NCBI RefSeq assembly: GCF_004010155.1
Contig: NZ_RRYH01000021.1
Span: 62,001-126,000, forward strand
Length of the DNA: 64,000 bases
Direction of reading: 5' to 3'
Source of the DNA: Solirhodobacter olei
Lineage (GTDB): Bacteria > Pseudomonadota > Alphaproteobacteria > Rhodobacterales > Rhodobacteraceae
The stretch's first letter is position 1. Each line of letters starts with the position of its first letter. This document shows positions 32,518 through 38,392 of this stretch, in pieces. Position numbers and translations under genes: made by a program. The notes beneath the pieces were generated by a model. That model made no database searches. It saw only the letters and a list, made by a program, of their open reading frames with translations, and was not told the DNA's origin.

Positions 32518-32524
32518 GGGCGTG

Positions 32525-33742
32525 ATGGGCGGCTTCGGCGAACTCGGCCTGAACGACCACCTCCTTGCCCGGCTCGCCGAGGCGGGGCTGGCGGAGCCGA
32601 CACCAATCCAGGCGCAGGCGATCCCGGCGGCGCTGGCCGGGCGCGACCTGCTTGGCCTCGCCCAGACCGGAACGGGGAAGACCGCGGCCTTCGGCCTCGC
32701 CCTTGTGCAGCGGCTGATGCGGATCGGAAAGCCACCCGCCCCAGGCACCGCCCGGTCTCTTGTTCTCGTGCCCACGCGGGAGCTTGCGGCGCAGGTCGGC
32801 CGCGCACTCTCGGGGTTCGCAAAGGGGAGCCACATCAAGGTGCTCTGGGTCGCCGGTGGCACCTCCATGGGCCGGCAGGAGGAGCGGCTCGCCCCCGGGA
32901 TCGACATCCTCGTGGCCACGCCCGGGCGCCTTATCGACCTGCTGAAGCGGCAGGCGGTGACGCTTGACGCGGTGCGCAACCTCGTGCTCGACGAGGCCGA
33001 CCACATGCTCGACCTCGGCTTCGGACCGGGGCTGGAGCGGATCGGCCGGCAGCTGCCCGCGAAGCGGCAGGTGCTGATGTTCTCCGCCACCATGCCGCCG
33101 CAGATCGAGGCGCTGGCCCAGGGCTGGCTCTCCGATCCCGTGCGCATCGCGGTCGCCCCGCCCGGCCGCCCGGCGGAGAAGCTGTCCCAGGCGGTGCATT
33201 TCACCTCCGGCCGGGCCAAGGCGGCGCTGTTGCGGACCTATCTCGACGGCCACCCCGGCGAACGCGCGCTGGTCTTCGCCCGCACCAAGGACGGGGCCGG
33301 CAAGCTCGCAGCTCTGCTGACCCATTGGGGCATCGCAGCAGAGCCGATCCACGGAGACCGGACCCAGACGGAGCGGAGCGCCGCACTGGAGGGCTTCCGC
33401 TCGGGCACGACGCTGGTGCTGGTCGCGACCGACCTCGCCGCCCGGGGGATCGACATTCCCGGCGTCGGCCATGTCTACAACTACGACCTGCCCGCGACGG
33501 CGGAGGCCTATGTTCACCGCATCGGCCGCACCGCCCGCGCCGGTGCCGAGGGCCGCGCCATCAGCCTCTGCGCCCCGGCCGAGATGGAGGCGCTCGCGGC
33601 GATCGAGACGGCGCTCGGCCAGAAGCTCGCGGTGGCAGGCGGCACGCCGCACGCCGCGGCGCCATCCACGCCCGGCCCCCGGCGCGAGGGACGCAAGCCC
33701 CGTGTCAAACCCTCTCGCCCCGGACCGCGCCGCGGCCGGTGA
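32525..33742 (+). CDS. DEAD-box ATP-dependent RNA helicase (RhlE-like)
   Basis: A 405-residue RNA helicase. In order: Q motif (PTPIQAQAIP), motif I (AQTGTGKTAAF), Ia (PTRELAAQV), II (VLDEADHMLDLG), III (FSATMPP), V (ATDLAARGIDIP) and VI (HRIGRTARAG). A short basic tail (PGPRREGRKPRVKPSRPGP) may bind RNA. ATG is used rather than the GTG one codon upstream. It starts 7 bases after the dehydratase stop, so it is co-transcribed with it. Confidence 0.94.
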   Translation: MGGFGELGLNDHLLARLAEAGLAEPTPIQAQAIPAALAGRDLLGLAQTGTGKTAAFGLALVQRLMRIGKPPAPGTARSLVLVPTRELAAQVGRALSGFAKGSHIKVLWVAGGTSMGRQEERLAPGIDILVATPGRLIDLLKRQAVTLDAVRNLVLDEADHMLDLGFGPGLERIGRQLPAKRQVLMFSATMPPQIEALAQGWLSDPVRIAVAPPGRPAEKLSQAVHFTSGRAKAALLRTYLDGHPGERALVFARTKDGAGKLAALLTHWGIAAEPIHGDRTQTERSAALEGFRSGTTLVLVATDLAARGIDIPGVGHVYNYDLPATAEAYVHRIGRTARAGAEGRAISLCAPAEMEALAAIETALGQKLAVAGGTPHAAAPSTPGPRREGRKPRVKPSRPGPRRGR

Positions 33743-33980
33743 CCGGCCCGCGCGCAGGCCGAGCAGCCGCAAGGCGAATTCCGGCAATAAAGTGCAAGCG
33801 AGGCGTGTGCATTAATGCTTCGTTAACTACCGCCTCCTAACGTCGACCCTGCACAAGGGACGCCGGGCAACCGGGGAGTAACGAGTAACCGGCGGGGTCC
33901 GGCGCGCCCGATCTTCGGGTTGGCCGGGCCCTGTCTTGTCTGCCTTGCGGCCGGGCCGGGCCTTCGGCTATCTGCGGGAG
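33743..33980. promoter_or_regulatory. Structured intergenic region with CtrA box upstream of tdk
   Basis: A 238-base gap. A full CtrA consensus lies at 33812-33827. Downstream of it, about 33850-33945, is a GC-rich stretch with several short inverted repeats, including CCCGATCTTCGGG (33907-33919) and GCCGGGC/GGCCGGGCC elements. No protein frame with a ribosome site fits this stretch except tdk at its end. It could be a 5' leader or a separate small RNA. Confidence 0.45.
33812..33827 (+). promoter_or_regulatory. CtrA-binding box (TTAA-N7-TTAAC)
   Basis: TTAA-TGCTTCG-TTAAC matches the CtrA consensus at every defined base. It lies about 155 bases before the tdk start, so a transcript beginning just downstream would have a long leader. 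CtrA binding is inferred from the match. Confidence 0.55.
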
Positions 33981-34571
33981 ATGGCCAAGCTCTATTTCCA
34001 GTATTCGACGATGAACGCGGGCAAGTCGACGCTGCTTCTCCAGGCGGCGCATAACTACCGCGAGCGCGGCATGGTGCCCTACCTCGTCACCGCACGCTTC
34101 GACACCCGCGCCGGCGAAGGGCGCATCGCCTCGCGCATCGGCATCGGGGAGCCGGCCGACACCTTCGGCCCCGAAGAGGACCTCTACGCCAAGATCGAGG
34201 CGCGGCTGGCCGAGGGTCCGGTGGCTTGCATCTTCTTCGACGAGGCGCAGTTCCTCTCCCGCACCCAGGTCTGGCAACTCGCCCGCGCGGTCGACGATCT
34301 CGGGGTGCCGATCATGTGCTACGGGCTGCGGGTGGATTTCCGGGGCGAGCTTTTCCCCGGCTCGGCCGCTCTGCTCGCGCTGGCCGACGAGATGCGCGAA
34401 GTCCGCACCATCTGTCACTGCGGCAAGAAAGCGACGATGGTGGTCCGCAAGGGTCCTGACGGCGCCGTGCTGCGCGACGGTGCGCAGGTGCAGGTCGGCG
34501 GGAACGAGACTTATGTCTCGCTCTGCCGCCGCCACTGGCGCGAGGCCGTGGGCGACGGGGCCGCGCCCTGA
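33981..34571 (+). CDS. tdk: Thymidine kinase
   Basis: A 196-residue type II thymidine kinase of the salvage pathway. It has a P-loop at residues 9-17 (STMNAGKST), FFDEAQFL (Walker B with the catalytic Glu) and the lasso-domain zinc cysteines in ICHCGKKA and the C-terminal CRRHW. The start MAKLYFQYSTMN matches the family and follows GCGGGAG. The VOC gene follows after 25 bases. Confidence 0.95.
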   Translation: MAKLYFQYSTMNAGKSTLLLQAAHNYRERGMVPYLVTARFDTRAGEGRIASRIGIGEPADTFGPEEDLYAKIEARLAEGPVACIFFDEAQFLSRTQVWQLARAVDDLGVPIMCYGLRVDFRGELFPGSAALLALADEMREVRTICHCGKKATMVVRKGPDGAVLRDGAQVQVGGNETYVSLCRRHWREAVGDGAAP

Positions 34572-34596
34572 TGCCCGCCCGCCGGGGAAGGCGCGG

Positions 34597-35016
34597 ATGA
34601 GCAACGCCCTCGTCCCTGAACTCGCGGTCTCCGACTGGCAGACATCCCGCCGGTTCTATTGCCAAACCATCGGCTTCAGCTGCCTCTACGAGCGGCCGGA
34701 AGAGGGGTTCAGCTACCTCGCGCTTGACGCGGCAGAACTGATGATCGATCAGATCGACCTCGGGCGGACCTTCGATGACGGTCACGCGCCGGAGGGGCGG
34801 CCCTTCGGGCGCGGCCTCAACCTGCAGATCAGGGTGCCCGCCATCCGCCCGCTTCTTGCCGCGCTGGAGGCCGCAGGGTGGCCGCTGCTCCTGCCCCCTG
34901 AGGATCGCTGGTACCGGCGCGACGATGGTGCGCTTGGCAACCGGCAGTTCGTTGTCGCCGATCCCGACGGCTACCTTCTGCGCTTTTACGAGGACCTCGG
35001 TTGGCGCAAGATCTGA
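34597..35016 (+). CDS. VOC family protein (bleomycin resistance/glyoxalase-like)
   Basis: A 139-residue two-module VOC-fold protein. ALVPELAVSDWQTSRRFYC at the N terminus and GNRQFVVADPDGYLLRFYED at the C terminus are the standard first and last strands, and the latter gives a Glu ligand. Single-domain members often bind and sequester antibiotics of the bleomycin type, but many are metal-dependent enzymes with unknown substrates. It lies between tdk and selD on the same strand. Confidence 0.86.
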   Translation: MSNALVPELAVSDWQTSRRFYCQTIGFSCLYERPEEGFSYLALDAAELMIDQIDLGRTFDDGHAPEGRPFGRGLNLQIRVPAIRPLLAALEAAGWPLLLPPEDRWYRRDDGALGNRQFVVADPDGYLLRFYEDLGWRKI

Positions 35017-35062
35017 TGGCCCGGCCCCGCCCTTCGGACCCGCCGCAGCGCGCTTGGGAGAG

Positions 35063-37252
35063 ATGATGACCATGCAGCCGCAGATCCCCCTGACCCGCGA
35101 CCTCGTGCTGATCGGCGGCGGTCATGCCCATGCGCTGGTATTGCTGCGCTGGGGGATGAAGCCCCTGCCCGGCACCCGGCTGACCGTCATCGATCCGAAC
35201 CCGACTGCGCCCTATACCGGCATGCTCCCGGGCCTGATCGCCGGACACTACGCCCCGGAGGAGCTGCAGATCGATCTCGTCCGGCTCGCCCGACATGCCG
35301 GCGCCCGGCTGATCCTTGGCCGCGCGACGGGGATCGACCGTGCCGCGCGGCGCATCGCGGTGCCCGGCCGGCCGGACGTACGCTACGACCTGGCCTCGAT
35401 CGACATCGGTATCACCTCCGACCTGCCCAGCCTTCCCGGCGCAGCGGAGCATGCGGTGGCGGCCAAGCCGCTCGGCGCCTATGCCGTGCGGTGGGACGCG
35501 TTCGTTGCCGCCCCGCCCGATCCCGCGCCGGTGGTGATCCTCGGCGCCGGGCTGGCGGGGGCGGAACTGGCGCTGGCCACGGCGCACCGGCTGCGCCGCG
35601 CGGGAATCGAACGGCCCGAGGTAAGCCTTGTCGAGCAGGCCGCCACGCCGCTGGCCGGGGTTGGCGCCGCGACCCGCCGGGCGCTTCTGCGCCACATGGC
35701 GCGGCAGGGGGTGGAGCTGATCACAGGCACCACGGCGGCCGAGGTCACGGAAGGCGCGGTGCGGCTGTCCGATGGCCGGGTGCTGCCCTCGGCCTTCACT
35801 CTCACCGCCACCGGCGCACGGCCGCATCCCTGGCTGGCGCAGACCGGGCTGGAGCTGACCGACGGCTTCATCACCGTCGGCCCCACCCTGCGCTCGACGA
35901 CCGACCCGGCGATCTTCGCAGCCGGCGACTGCGCCCACCTGGCCCATGCGCCACGGCCCAAGGCCGGGGTCTTCGCGGTGCGCGAGGCGCCGGTTCTCTT
36001 CCGCAACCTCAGGGCCGCCCTGACCGGCGCGCGCCCGCGCCGATACCACCCGCAGCGGGACTACCTGAAGCTCGTCTCCACCGGCGGACGGGGAGCGGTA
36101 GCCGACAAATGGGGCCGTGCGCTGGACGGGTGGCTGCTGTGGCGCTGGAAGGACCGGATCGACCGGCGCTTCATGCGGATGTTCCGGCACCTGCCACAGA
36201 TGCCGCCGCCCCACCTGCCGCACCCCCTGACGCTTGGCGTGGCAGAGGAGCTTTCGGGTTCAAAACCGCTCTGCGGTGGCTGCGGCGCGAAGATCGGGCC
36301 GGGGGCCCTGGCGGCGGCGCTCAGCGGGCTGCCCGGGCCGCAGCGGGCCGACGTCCTCTCCGGCCCCGGCGACGATGCGGCGGTGATCGAGCTTGGATCG
36401 ACCCGCGAGGTGATCACGACCGACCACCTCCGCGCCTTCTGCGAGGATCCGTACCTGATGGCCCGGATCGCGGCGACCCATGCCCTGGGCGACATCTGGG
36501 CGATGGGCGCGGCCCCGCGCGCGGCGCTGGTGCAGGTGACGGTCCCGCGCGCCTCCGAAAGGCTGCAGGCCGACATGATGGCAGAGCTGATGGCCGCGGC
36601 CTCCGCGGTCTTCCGCGCCGCAGGGGCCGATATCGTTGGCGGTCATTCCTCGATCGGGGCGGAGCTGACGATCGGCTTCACGGTGACCGGTCTCGCCGAG
36701 AGACCCATCTCCAAGGCCGGCGCACAGCCCGGCGACGCGCTGATCCTGACCAAGCCCCTCGGCACCGGCACCGTGCTGGCCGCCGAGATGGCCCGTGCCG
36801 CGCCCGGCGACGCGGTGGCGGCCGCCTGGGCTTCGATGATCCGCCCCCTCGGCCCGGCGGCCGCGATCCTCGCCCCCGAGGCCCATGCGATGACCGACGT
36901 CACCGGCTTCGGCCTCGCTGGGCATCTGCTGGAGATCCTCGAGGCCTCTGGCGCCGCAGTCGAAATCGACCTCGACGCAGTGCCGTGCCTGCCGGGTGCC
37001 GAGGCGCTCGCGGCGGCGGGTGAGGCGTCCACGCTCGCGCCGGCCAACCTCGCCGCCGTGGCGCCGCAGCTTTCGGTGCCCGAGGGGCCGAAGGCGGCGC
37101 TGCTGGTCGATCCGCAGACCGGCGGCGGGCTGCTGGCCGCGGTGCCGGGTGCGGCGGCGGAGGGGCTGCTGACGCAGCTGCGCGCGGCCGGCGAGGAGGC
37201 CGCGATCATCGGACGGGTGGTGGCGGGGACGCCGCATATCGCAGCCGCCTGA
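35063..37252 (+). CDS. selD: Flavoprotein-SelD fusion (selenide, water dikinase)
   Basis: About 729 residues in two parts. Residues 1-390 are a pyridine-nucleotide-disulfide oxidoreductase-like flavoprotein (VLIGGGHAHALVLLRWG at the N terminus, ILGAGLAGAELALATAHRLR in the middle, AAGDCAHLAHAPRP near the end). Residues about 400-729 are selenophosphate synthetase. Cys407 and Lys410 (CGAK) match Cys17 and Lys20 of E. coli SelD, and SGPGDDAAVI, VGGHSSIGAE and MTDVTGFGLAGH are its nucleotide and metal motifs. There is no in-frame selenocysteine codon. Two adjacent ATG codons make the exact start uncertain by one residue. selU lies convergently 87 bases away. Confidence 0.93.
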   Translation: MMTMQPQIPLTRDLVLIGGGHAHALVLLRWGMKPLPGTRLTVIDPNPTAPYTGMLPGLIAGHYAPEELQIDLVRLARHAGARLILGRATGIDRAARRIAVPGRPDVRYDLASIDIGITSDLPSLPGAAEHAVAAKPLGAYAVRWDAFVAAPPDPAPVVILGAGLAGAELALATAHRLRRAGIERPEVSLVEQAATPLAGVGAATRRALLRHMARQGVELITGTTAAEVTEGAVRLSDGRVLPSAFTLTATGARPHPWLAQTGLELTDGFITVGPTLRSTTDPAIFAAGDCAHLAHAPRPKAGVFAVREAPVLFRNLRAALTGARPRRYHPQRDYLKLVSTGGRGAVADKWGRALDGWLLWRWKDRIDRRFMRMFRHLPQMPPPHLPHPLTLGVAEELSGSKPLCGGCGAKIGPGALAAALSGLPGPQRADVLSGPGDDAAVIELGSTREVITTDHLRAFCEDPYLMARIAATHALGDIWAMGAAPRAALVQVTVPRASERLQADMMAELMAAASAVFRAAGADIVGGHSSIGAELTIGFTVTGLAERPISKAGAQPGDALILTKPLGTGTVLAAEMARAAPGDAVAAAWASMIRPLGPAAAILAPEAHAMTDVTGFGLAGHLLEILEASGAAVEIDLDAVPCLPGAEALAAAGEASTLAPANLAAVAPQLSVPEGPKAALLVDPQTGGGLLAAVPGAAAEGLLTQLRAAGEEAAIIGRVVAGTPHIAAA

Positions 37253-37274
37253 ACCCGTGGCAGGGGCCGGATGC

Positions 37275-37326
37275 GAGTATTTGGGCCAAGGAGAAGCACA
37301 GGGTTTTCTTCTTGGCTGAAATACTC
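37275..37326. repeat. Long imperfect palindrome between selD and selU (bidirectional terminator-like)
   Basis: GAGTATTTGGGCCAAGGAGAA pairs with a downstream inverted copy at 18 of 21 positions around a roughly 10-base loop. It lies exactly between two convergent genes, where it could end both transcripts. From memory, similar GAGTATTT palindromes occur between genes in many Rhodobacteraceae genomes. Confidence 0.6.
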
Positions 37327-37339
37327 CCTTTGGTGCGGC

Positions 37340-38392
37340 TCAGAACCCCGCGATACGCTCGGCCAGCCTGTCCGCGAGAGGGGCCAGGGTTTCCGGCGTG
37401 AGGTCGGGCGTCGAGAACACCTCCGAACCTTCGGTGGCCGTGCGGGCGCGCTGCTTGGCGTAGCGCGGGTCGTAGTGATGCTCCATCAGCCCGGCGGCCA
37501 GCGGCTCGAAGCGGCCCGTGGCCGCAAGCCCCTGCCAATGCTCGATCCGTTCGGCGGGATGGTGCGGGCGTAGCAGATCGATCACCCGGGCGATCTCGTC
37601 CGGGTCGGCGGTAAGATCGGCATAGGCGCGTGCGAGGTAGCGGGCGCGGGCGGCAAGCGGGGCGGCGACGGAAAGGCGCGGGGCCGCGCGCATCGCCTTC
37701 CAGAGCGGCGGCGGGAGCGAGACATCGCCAACCTTGCTCGATTCTGCTTCCACCACCACGGGGCGGGCGGGATCGAGCCGCAGGAGAGCGGCGGCAAGGC
37801 GGCTTTCGAAAGCCTTCTGCGCCGGCTGCCCGCCGGCGCGATGGCCGAAGAGAGAGCCACGGTGATTGGCGAGCCCCTCGAGGTCGATCACCTGCACCCC
37901 GCGCGCGGCGAGAAGGTGCAGAAGCTCCGTCTTGGCGCTGCCGGTATTGCCGTCGAGCAGGACCACGCGCGAGGGCACCGGCGCCTCGTGGACCGCCTGC
38001 ACCACAAGCGAACGATAGGCCTTGTAGCCGCCCTTGATCGTGTCCACCCGCCAGCCGATCTGCGCCAGGATCGAGGCGAAGGAGCCCGATCGCTGCCCGC
38101 CGCGCCAGCAGTAGACCAGAGGCTTCCAGCCCCCGGGCTTCTCTGCCAGCGGCCCTTCCAGATGGCGCGCGGCATTGCGGGCGACCAGCGCGGCGCCGAT
38201 CTTGCGGGCGCGGAACGGGCTGTCCTGCGTGTAGATCGTGCCGACGCGGGCGCGTTCCTCGTTGTCGAGCGCGGGCAGGCTGATCGCGCCGGGGATATGA
38301 TCCTCCTCCCATTCGGCGGGGGAGCGGACGTCGATGATCTCGTCGAAGTCGAGCGTGGCGAGGTCCGAAAGGGCGGTGAGCGTGACGGGCAT
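37340..38392 (-). CDS. selU: tRNA 2-selenouridine synthase
   Basis: A 350-residue enzyme (SelU/MnmH/YbbB) that replaces the sulfur of 2-thiouridine at tRNA position 34 with selenium, using selenophosphate. The N-terminal rhodanese domain has the active Cys95 in YCWRGGQRS, and DVRSPAEWEEDHIPGA is its rhodanese signature. The C-terminal P-loop domain has DGNTGSAKTELL at residues 147-158. The ATG is the only methionine near the family start; no strong ribosome site is seen. It is the last gene of a nth-kinase-permease-selU series and is convergent with selD, which supplies its substrate. Confidence 0.94.
   Translation of the reverse strand: MPVTLTALSDLATLDFDEIIDVRSPAEWEEDHIPGAISLPALDNEERARVGTIYTQDSPFRARKIGAALVARNAARHLEGPLAEKPGGWKPLVYCWRGGQRSGSFASILAQIGWRVDTIKGGYKAYRSLVVQAVHEAPVPSRVVLLDGNTGSAKTELLHLLAARGVQVIDLEGLANHRGSLFGHRAGGQPAQKAFESRLAAALLRLDPARPVVVEAESSKVGDVSLPPPLWKAMRAAPRLSVAAPLAARARYLARAYADLTADPDEIARVIDLLRPHHPAERIEHWQGLAATGRFEPLAAGLMEHHYDPRYAKQRARTATEGSEVFSTPDLTPETLAPLADRLAERIAGF

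Follow-up and report, generated by a model that had tools for sequence, protein, structure and literature searches.

Among the RNAs described for Rhodobacteraceae and their relatives (PMC8632094, PMC2864571, PMC4809877, PMC5107571, PMC8307010, PMC3688512, PMC8625941), those closest to the RNA considered here, which we call R1, are StsR, PcrZ, CcsR and SorY of R. sphaeroides, likewise short regulatory RNAs in the same bacterial family. Unlike R1, none of the four is placed beside the thymidine kinase gene tdk in the passages of PMC8307010 and PMC8625941 that describe them. StsR is described there as being driven by RpoHI/RpoHII, whereas the R1 region has a TTAA, joined in relatives by a TATAAA-like element. 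The RNAs HRC-8-4 and uORFC-8-2 (PMC8632094) and the SAM/SAH riboswitch (PMC2864571) resemble R1, as they are presented in those papers, in being structured, confined to Rhodobacterales and found by comparative genomics, but they adjoin cco genes, cysS and metK; neither tdk nor thymidine is mentioned in the main texts of the two papers. In the portion of the literature covered by our searches, we found no description of an RNA at tdk in Rhodobacteraceae, and no work joining thymidine kinase, small RNA or sRNA, and Rhodobacter. We have filed R1 as a new RNA family, although it may correspond to one of the 79 R. sphaeroides RNAs mentioned in PMC8625941, StsR included.

A scan of the whole 64 kb stretch with Rfam 15 returned no match at the gathering score, and the same scan of 17 related loci yielded only a tRNA elsewhere. 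The best sub-threshold match was P35, at 22.2 of 70 bits, and two families scored far below threshold in one relative (L069). Membership in a known Rfam family was rejected, as no gathering-score match fell at R1 in either set. A further point of comparison is the gene next to R1 in relatives, whose product of about 150 residues matches PHROG 101, CII-like transcriptional activator, at E 2e-15, and is in this respect like the CII-type regulators of phage 186 (PF06892, PHROG 101). Unlike these, R1's neighbour is a single conserved gene beside a helicase gene and tdk in many loci.

The stretch analysed here, hereafter the window, comprises 64,000 nt of Solirhodobacter olei (NZ_RRYH01000021.1; the genome is designated G000). 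An initial annotation had pointed to a perfect CtrA box ahead of a structured region with no gene until tdk, and had proposed either a long structured leader of tdk under CtrA control or an unannotated small RNA controlled by CtrA (Table 1). The upstream neighbour is a helicase gene, whose product matches NCBIfam models at E values down to 3e-114, with every model score under its curated cut-off. The gap from the helicase stop (33742) to the tdk ATG (33981), the point where the alignment of relatives begins, contains no complete open frame of at least 50 aa. Three frames reach into the gap (33325-33840 and 33471-33815 on the plus strand, 33837-34604 on the minus strand) and have most of their length in the helicase gene or in tdk, so the statement that no gene intervenes holds in substance. 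The tdk frame also contains an in-frame TTG at 33936. Downstream of tdk, a plus-strand gene at 34874-37249 encodes a pyridine nucleotide-disulfide oxidoreductase domain (TIGR03169, 493 bits, cut-off 310) fused to a selenide, water dikinase domain (TIGR00476 selD, 296 bits, cut-off 125). For the minus-strand frame beside it, 37206-38309, NCBIfam models gave no match at E 1e-10, and this frame may not be coding.

Table 1. Features of the tdk upstream region in the window; all lie on the strand of tdk.
Feature	Position	Strand	Basis
DEAD-box RNA helicase gene, upstream neighbour	32522..33742	+	NCBIfam RhlE/CshA-type models
Full CtrA-type box TTAATGCTTCGTTAAC	33812..33827	+	exact TTAA-N7-TTAAC
TTAA of the box's second half	33823..33826	+	position conserved in relatives
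Candidate -10 element CCTAACG	33836..33842	+	spacing only; start near 33850 if driven from the full box
Predicted small RNA, ~92 nt, reduced R1 member	33850..33941	+	R1 match 33850-33935, synteny, fold
Hairpin 1, CCGG-GCAA-CCGG	33863..33874	+	R1 alignment; same in L121, one base off in L120
Conserved unpaired linker GTAACGAGT	33878..33886	+	R1 alignment; GAG conserved in the second R1 alignment (A2)
Long GC-rich hairpin with T-rich tail TGTCTTGTCT, terminator-like, equivalent of hairpin 3	33891..33941	+	folds
Candidate tdk promoter: TTGCGG 33945-33950, 17 bases, CTATCT 33968-33973	33945..33973	+	conservation in 81 upstreams
tdk, thymidine kinase	33981..34571	+	NCBIfam NF003300, 287 bits vs cut-off 195

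The box is indeed exact. The pattern TTAA-N7-TTAAC, which is the CtrA site consensus as used for D. shibae in PMC4046655, has a single occurrence in the window, where 100 shuffles averaged 0.01. The proposed structure stands for part of the region: the stretch 33830-33985 as a whole (-79.3 kcal/mol) folds no better than its shuffles (z -1.08, equalled by 30 of 200), whereas the 92 bases at 33850-33941, limits picked after comparison with relatives, fold at z -3.38 and were equalled by none of 200. When the intergenic region was used as query in a DNA similarity search, no homologous stretch turned up in 295 Rhodobacteraceae genomes or in the genus; seven of the 295 genomes matched, six of these seven by 24-32-base fragments alone, and within the genus the search returned short fragments only, with E values of up to 10.

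The R1 family became visible only on side-by-side reading of the sequences upstream of tdk. These share an order in which TTTCCCATTAATC precedes TTTGTCAT-NN-ATAAAG by 12 bases; two hairpins follow, GTTCCGG..CCGGAAC and CCGGTG-TCCCCAG-CACCGG, with GTAACGAGTG between them, and then come GGGTGGGGTCCGCCGC, its complement GCGGCGGGCCC and a T-rich stretch. In relatives the R1 RNA is about 125 nt long and reads rightwards: hairpin 1 is followed by an unpaired GUAACGAGUG, then by hairpin 2, whose loop is UCCCCAG, and by a long hairpin 3. A TTAA/TGTCA pair was located by script in 43 of 82 loci, with the same spacing each time (a spacing range was allowed first, and a fixed spacing in the fallback), and by eye in four more.

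We assessed covariation in two alignments. The first, A1, holds 28 aligned loci with a recognisable 3′ arm; the arm was set by hand in L043, L048, L051 and L105, and loci without an arm match were left out, as were L040, L053, L104 and L124, where the arm match looked wrong. RNAalifold predicts 27 pairs in three helices on A1, with 94.7% of cells pairing, compared to 88.9 in shuffled and 35-50 in slid alignments, and 17 of the 27 pairs show changes on both sides (6.9 in shuffles). An R1 model matched 76 of the 88 loci supplied to it; 55 of the 80 named loci were among those supplied, and 43 of these were matched. In A2, which consists of the 76 matched sequences (73 distinct rows) and, being fitted to the model, leans towards it, 94.2% of cells in the distinct rows pair as opposed to 81.7 after shuffling, with changes on both sides at 26 of 27 pairs (16.5 in shuffles). 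Both alignments thus point to a covarying three-hairpin RNA at the same spot in relatives, so that the lack of conserved structure which would have spoken against the initial annotation is not what we find, and its suggestion of an unannotated small RNA is supported.

G-U cells outnumber A-C cells by 98 to 15 on A1, indicating that R1 reads in the direction of tdk; an RNA on the minus strand was rejected on the same count and on its fold (z -0.47). Among unpaired positions, conservation is highest in the linker's GAG (0.88, 0.95 and 1.00 in the 76 sequences of A2) and at three C's of the second loop (0.91-0.95, also in A2). T content behind hairpin 3 is 36%, against 21%.

The linker motif (AGTG) recurs directly after hairpin 3 in 13 of the 28 loci, L049, L060, L063, L066, L069, L073 and L103 among them, compared to 3.7 in shuffles and 12% for control stretches downstream; in several of these loci another small hairpin comes next, as judged by eye. 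The linker and hairpin are possibly a repeated module. The recurrence of AGTG suggests, tentatively, a deletion of hairpins 2-3 between two linker copies in the window.

R1 matches were found in 56 of 295 Rhodobacteraceae genomes at E 0.01, one per genome. This count is a lower bound, as 25 of the 30 best CII-like loci have R1 at E<=0.01, two of them, L175 and L184, in genomes missed by that count. A class-wide search gave matches in two of 289 genomes. One of these is a member of Rhodobacteraceae too; the other, L189 (23.5 bits, E 0.009), is the sole match outside the family, has neither tdk nor a CII-like gene in the stretch examined, and was rejected as chance.

The CII-like gene accompanies R1 closely. 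In 49 of the 56 genomes it stands back to back with the RNA, pointing away, at a distance of 52-103 bases; in one further genome (G246) the copy lies on another contig, and six genomes have none. Overall, the gene is present in 150 of the 295 Rhodobacteraceae genomes (E 1e-10, mostly one match per genome), with 50 of 56 genomes carrying it where R1 is found versus 100 of 239 without an R1 match (Fisher 2.7e-11). Among 30 fetched R1 loci, 29 have a CII-like gene and 28 have tdk within 1.5 kb. Judged by position, the association of R1 with the CII-like gene is therefore no looser than that with tdk, and these same counts suggest that the link to dTTP salvage may be incidental.

In the loci read, the CII-like gene lies between the helicase or other genes and tdk, as in L042 3271-3726 and L066 3186-3656 (minus). 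Mean column identity of the protein is 78% over 21 members. The L066 protein scores 25.9 bits with PF06892, just below the 26-bit cut-off; a match of the CII-like gene to the YmfL model falls far below the cut-off of that model. A structure model is of low confidence (pLDDT 66.9, pTM 0.44) and has no significant match in the PDB, where the phage 186 regulator 6vli ranks first at E 0.37; sequence searches with the protein returned two plasmid and four phage records, all at less than 60% identity. The fixed spacing of ATTAAT and TGTCAT would also fit the -10 and -35 elements of the CII-like gene on the other strand. The putative shared control region further contains direct-repeat-like elements, TTCCCATTAAT and TTGTCATNNAT, 25 bases apart from start to start (by eye, in L066).

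Compared to these relatives, the window's copy of R1 is reduced. Its match to the R1 model reaches about 15.4-15.5 bits, the top score in the 64 kb (E 0.018 there, with the next match at 14.4 bits); confined to the syntenic place of 301 bases it has an E of 8.5e-5, though by score alone it is weak, and the whole-genome R1 search left G000 without a match at E 0.01. The match lies upstream of tdk and on its strand, and contains hairpin 1, the linker GUAACGAGU, identical to that of the family, and the long 3′ hairpin. Hairpin 2 with its UCCCCAG loop is missing from the match in the R1 alignment, and since G000 contains no CII-like gene at E 0.001, the back-to-back neighbour is missing as well. 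Going by alignment and neighbourhood, the window copy is an aberrant R1 member that fails on these two features, and the missing hairpin with its conserved C-rich loop means that it could be decaying.

The retained parts also differ in detail from those of the family. Hairpin 1 is short and includes one pair (two positions) marked as non-standard, and a single-sequence fold prefers another pairing there, such that the 5′ part departs from the family fold. At the 3′ end, a consensus terminator scan found a short stem at 33917-33931 with a T-rich tail (one found, 0.2 expected). Alignment of 33800-33945 with loci from the genus was equalled by two of 1000 dinucleotide shuffles for L121 and by one for L120, and was not significant for L122 (110 of 1000) or L124 (284 of 1000). 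For L042, nine of 1000 shuffles did as well, but there the window pairs with a hairpin nearer tdk, which is a different part.

We then considered how the CtrA box relates to the conserved elements ahead of R1. None of the 80 other tdk upstreams (the best 80 of at least 575 loci; 500 bases each, except two shorter ones of 75 and 305 bases) contains a full box. Only its second TTAA matches a conserved position: the window's CGTTAAC aligns with CGTTAACC of L120 and L121, placing its TTAAC with their TTAACC, and the distance from TTAA to the CCGG of hairpin 1 is 39 in 25 of the 28 relatives with a readable CCGG (47 looked at) and 40 in the window. By this alignment and spacing, the conserved TTAA is the second half of the box and the first half is private to the window; the first half was also considered as the counterpart, and dropped because the alignment with L120 and L121 points to the second. 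In the window, L120 and L121, all of which have lost the CII-like gene, TTAA is kept and TGTCAT is gone. That TTAA outlasts this loss in the three cases suggests that it serves the promoter of the RNA.

CtrA promoters of R. sphaeroides are described in PMC6180460 as starting 23-24 nt behind the site, with A at -11 and G at -4. If the RNA starts at 33850, the window has 23 nt from box end to start and an A at -11, and no G at -4. The element at the position of the relatives' TATAAA is poor in the window (TGCACA). CtrA control of the predicted small RNA is plausible, and would be lineage-particular or rest on a half site, given that no full box occurs in the 80 upstreams and only the second TTAA is conserved. 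The initial annotation's proposal of CtrA control is favoured by the exact box, the spacing of CTAACG and the presence of boxes elsewhere in the genome before a flagellin gene and others; against it, relatives show no full site at this promoter.

Across both strands of G000, TTAA-N7-TTAAC has 19 matches at 15 places, compared to nine for the reversed pattern, from which about half of the genome's exact matches could be chance. Ten frames adjacent to the 14 other places were scanned, and comprise flagellin, two PAS-domain proteins, ribosomal protein S6, an AAA/KaiC-type ATPase, a glycosyl transferase, parts of ABC transporters, an AMP-binding enzyme and an MshEN-domain protein. By eye, we take the PAS-domain proteins to resemble CckA and DivL, and the ATPase is presumably RadA-like. 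The boxes before the flagellin gene and the two PAS-domain proteins are on contigs C36, C47 and C91 (L196, L200 and L203). Exact-box places are intergenic in 12 of 15 cases, and reversed-control places in three of seven, numbers too few to separate the two; the count relies on rough ORF calling, and for one control place (L208) the site scored was that of its neighbour.

Together, these findings make it reasonably probable, in our view, that 33812-33941 is a small-RNA gene and not a leader of tdk, with CtrA probably setting its transcription in the window. A rather doubtful alternative is that the window holds the decayed remains of a small-RNA gene that was functional before its partner regulator and hairpin 2 were lost and is now drifting, the box being a chance extension of the conserved TTAA. 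The window's R1 score is the lowest of the genus copies found (75.7 bits in L124, 59.6 in L122, 36.1 in L120, 27.0 in L121; L119 and L123 have no match), and the three lowest scores belong to genomes without a CII-like gene, a gene that within the genus is present in G295, G296 and G299 and has no match at E 0.001 in G182, G297 (70% complete) and G298. A chance box would also be in keeping with the nine reversed-control matches beside 19 real ones. Decay sits less well with the retention of both the linker and a strong terminator-like hairpin, and with the fold of the 92 nt (z -3.38). Furthermore, the CII-like gene is present in G299 and R1 gives no match there, which means that low R1 scores cannot be put down simply to loss of the partner.

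We consider it very unlikely that the region amounts to a terminator of the helicase transcript plus GC-rich filler. A terminator-like hairpin does lie about 150 bases behind the helicase stop, and the region as a whole folds no better than shuffles, but three covarying hairpins in relatives, where they stand behind a gene pointing away, would be left unexplained.

The remaining proposal, that the structure is a leader of tdk, bears on where tdk transcription begins. We compared 81 tdk upstreams, made up of the best 80 of at least 575 related loci, taken from named contigs, and the window. TTG clusters 34-37 bases ahead of the ATG, and CTA mostly 12-13 bases ahead of it. In the last 60 bases, TTG followed after 18-21 bases by CTA occurs in 43 of the 81, including the window, whereas 200 single-base shuffles gave a mean of 1.2 and a largest count of 5; a relaxed pattern is found in 65. 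The strict pattern is missing in 38 of the upstreams and the relaxed one in 16. In the window, seven bases separate CTATCT from the ATG, and a strict sigma-70 consensus scan of the window upstream found no promoter at tdk. From this conservation, tdk seems to have its own promoter, located between the structure and the gene. Because the TTG/CTA pair puts the start at the ATG, the tdk transcript probably has no leader, and the upstream structure would not serve as one; a tdk riboswitch or leader was rejected on this ground.

That the region is a long, structured 5′ leader through which CtrA controls tdk, the first option of the initial annotation, is thus very unlikely: the strand is the same and the possible CtrA promoter lies about 130 bases from the ATG, but a terminator-like hairpin with its T-rich tail falls in between, tdk seems to start at or near its ATG from its own promoter, and in some relatives the helicase stop is merely 58-85 bases before tdk (71 in a Paracoccus plasmid record).

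Returning to the small-RNA gene as the preferred reading, we propose that in relatives the RNA would be transcribed from a promoter with TTAA in its -35 region and terminate at the last hairpin. The lineage of the window would have lost the CII-like gene and hairpin 2 and retained hairpin 1, the linker and the terminator, while the conserved TTAA in the RNA's -35 region would have been extended to a full CtrA box. Transcription of the window RNA would now be set by CtrA, starting at about 33850-33860 and ending at about 33941. R1 RNA would act in trans by base pairing via its conserved linker; where relatives have hairpin 2, its C-rich loop would pair too. C-rich loops of this kind pair with G-rich ribosome-binding sites, and such loops are known in CcsR.

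A broader scenario, which we offer tentatively and judge to be on the unlikely side, is that Rhodobacteraceae domesticated a switch of the phage lysogeny type, consisting of a CII-like regulator and a small RNA under shared divergent control. In the lineage of the window, the regulator would then have been lost and CtrA would have taken over through a full box built on the conserved TTAA.

For S. olei, these results would correct the view that tdk has a long leader, and the boxes at L196, L200 and L203 provide a starting list for its CtrA regulon. For the family, R1 is a strongly covarying RNA that matches once per genome and, in roughly one in five of the Rhodobacteraceae genomes sampled, is linked to a conserved phage-type regulator; it is absent from Rfam and open to study at once in cultured strains. 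The window itself would represent a natural experiment, in which the loss of a partner regulator, the reduction of the RNA and the gain of a full CtrA box have come together in one lineage.
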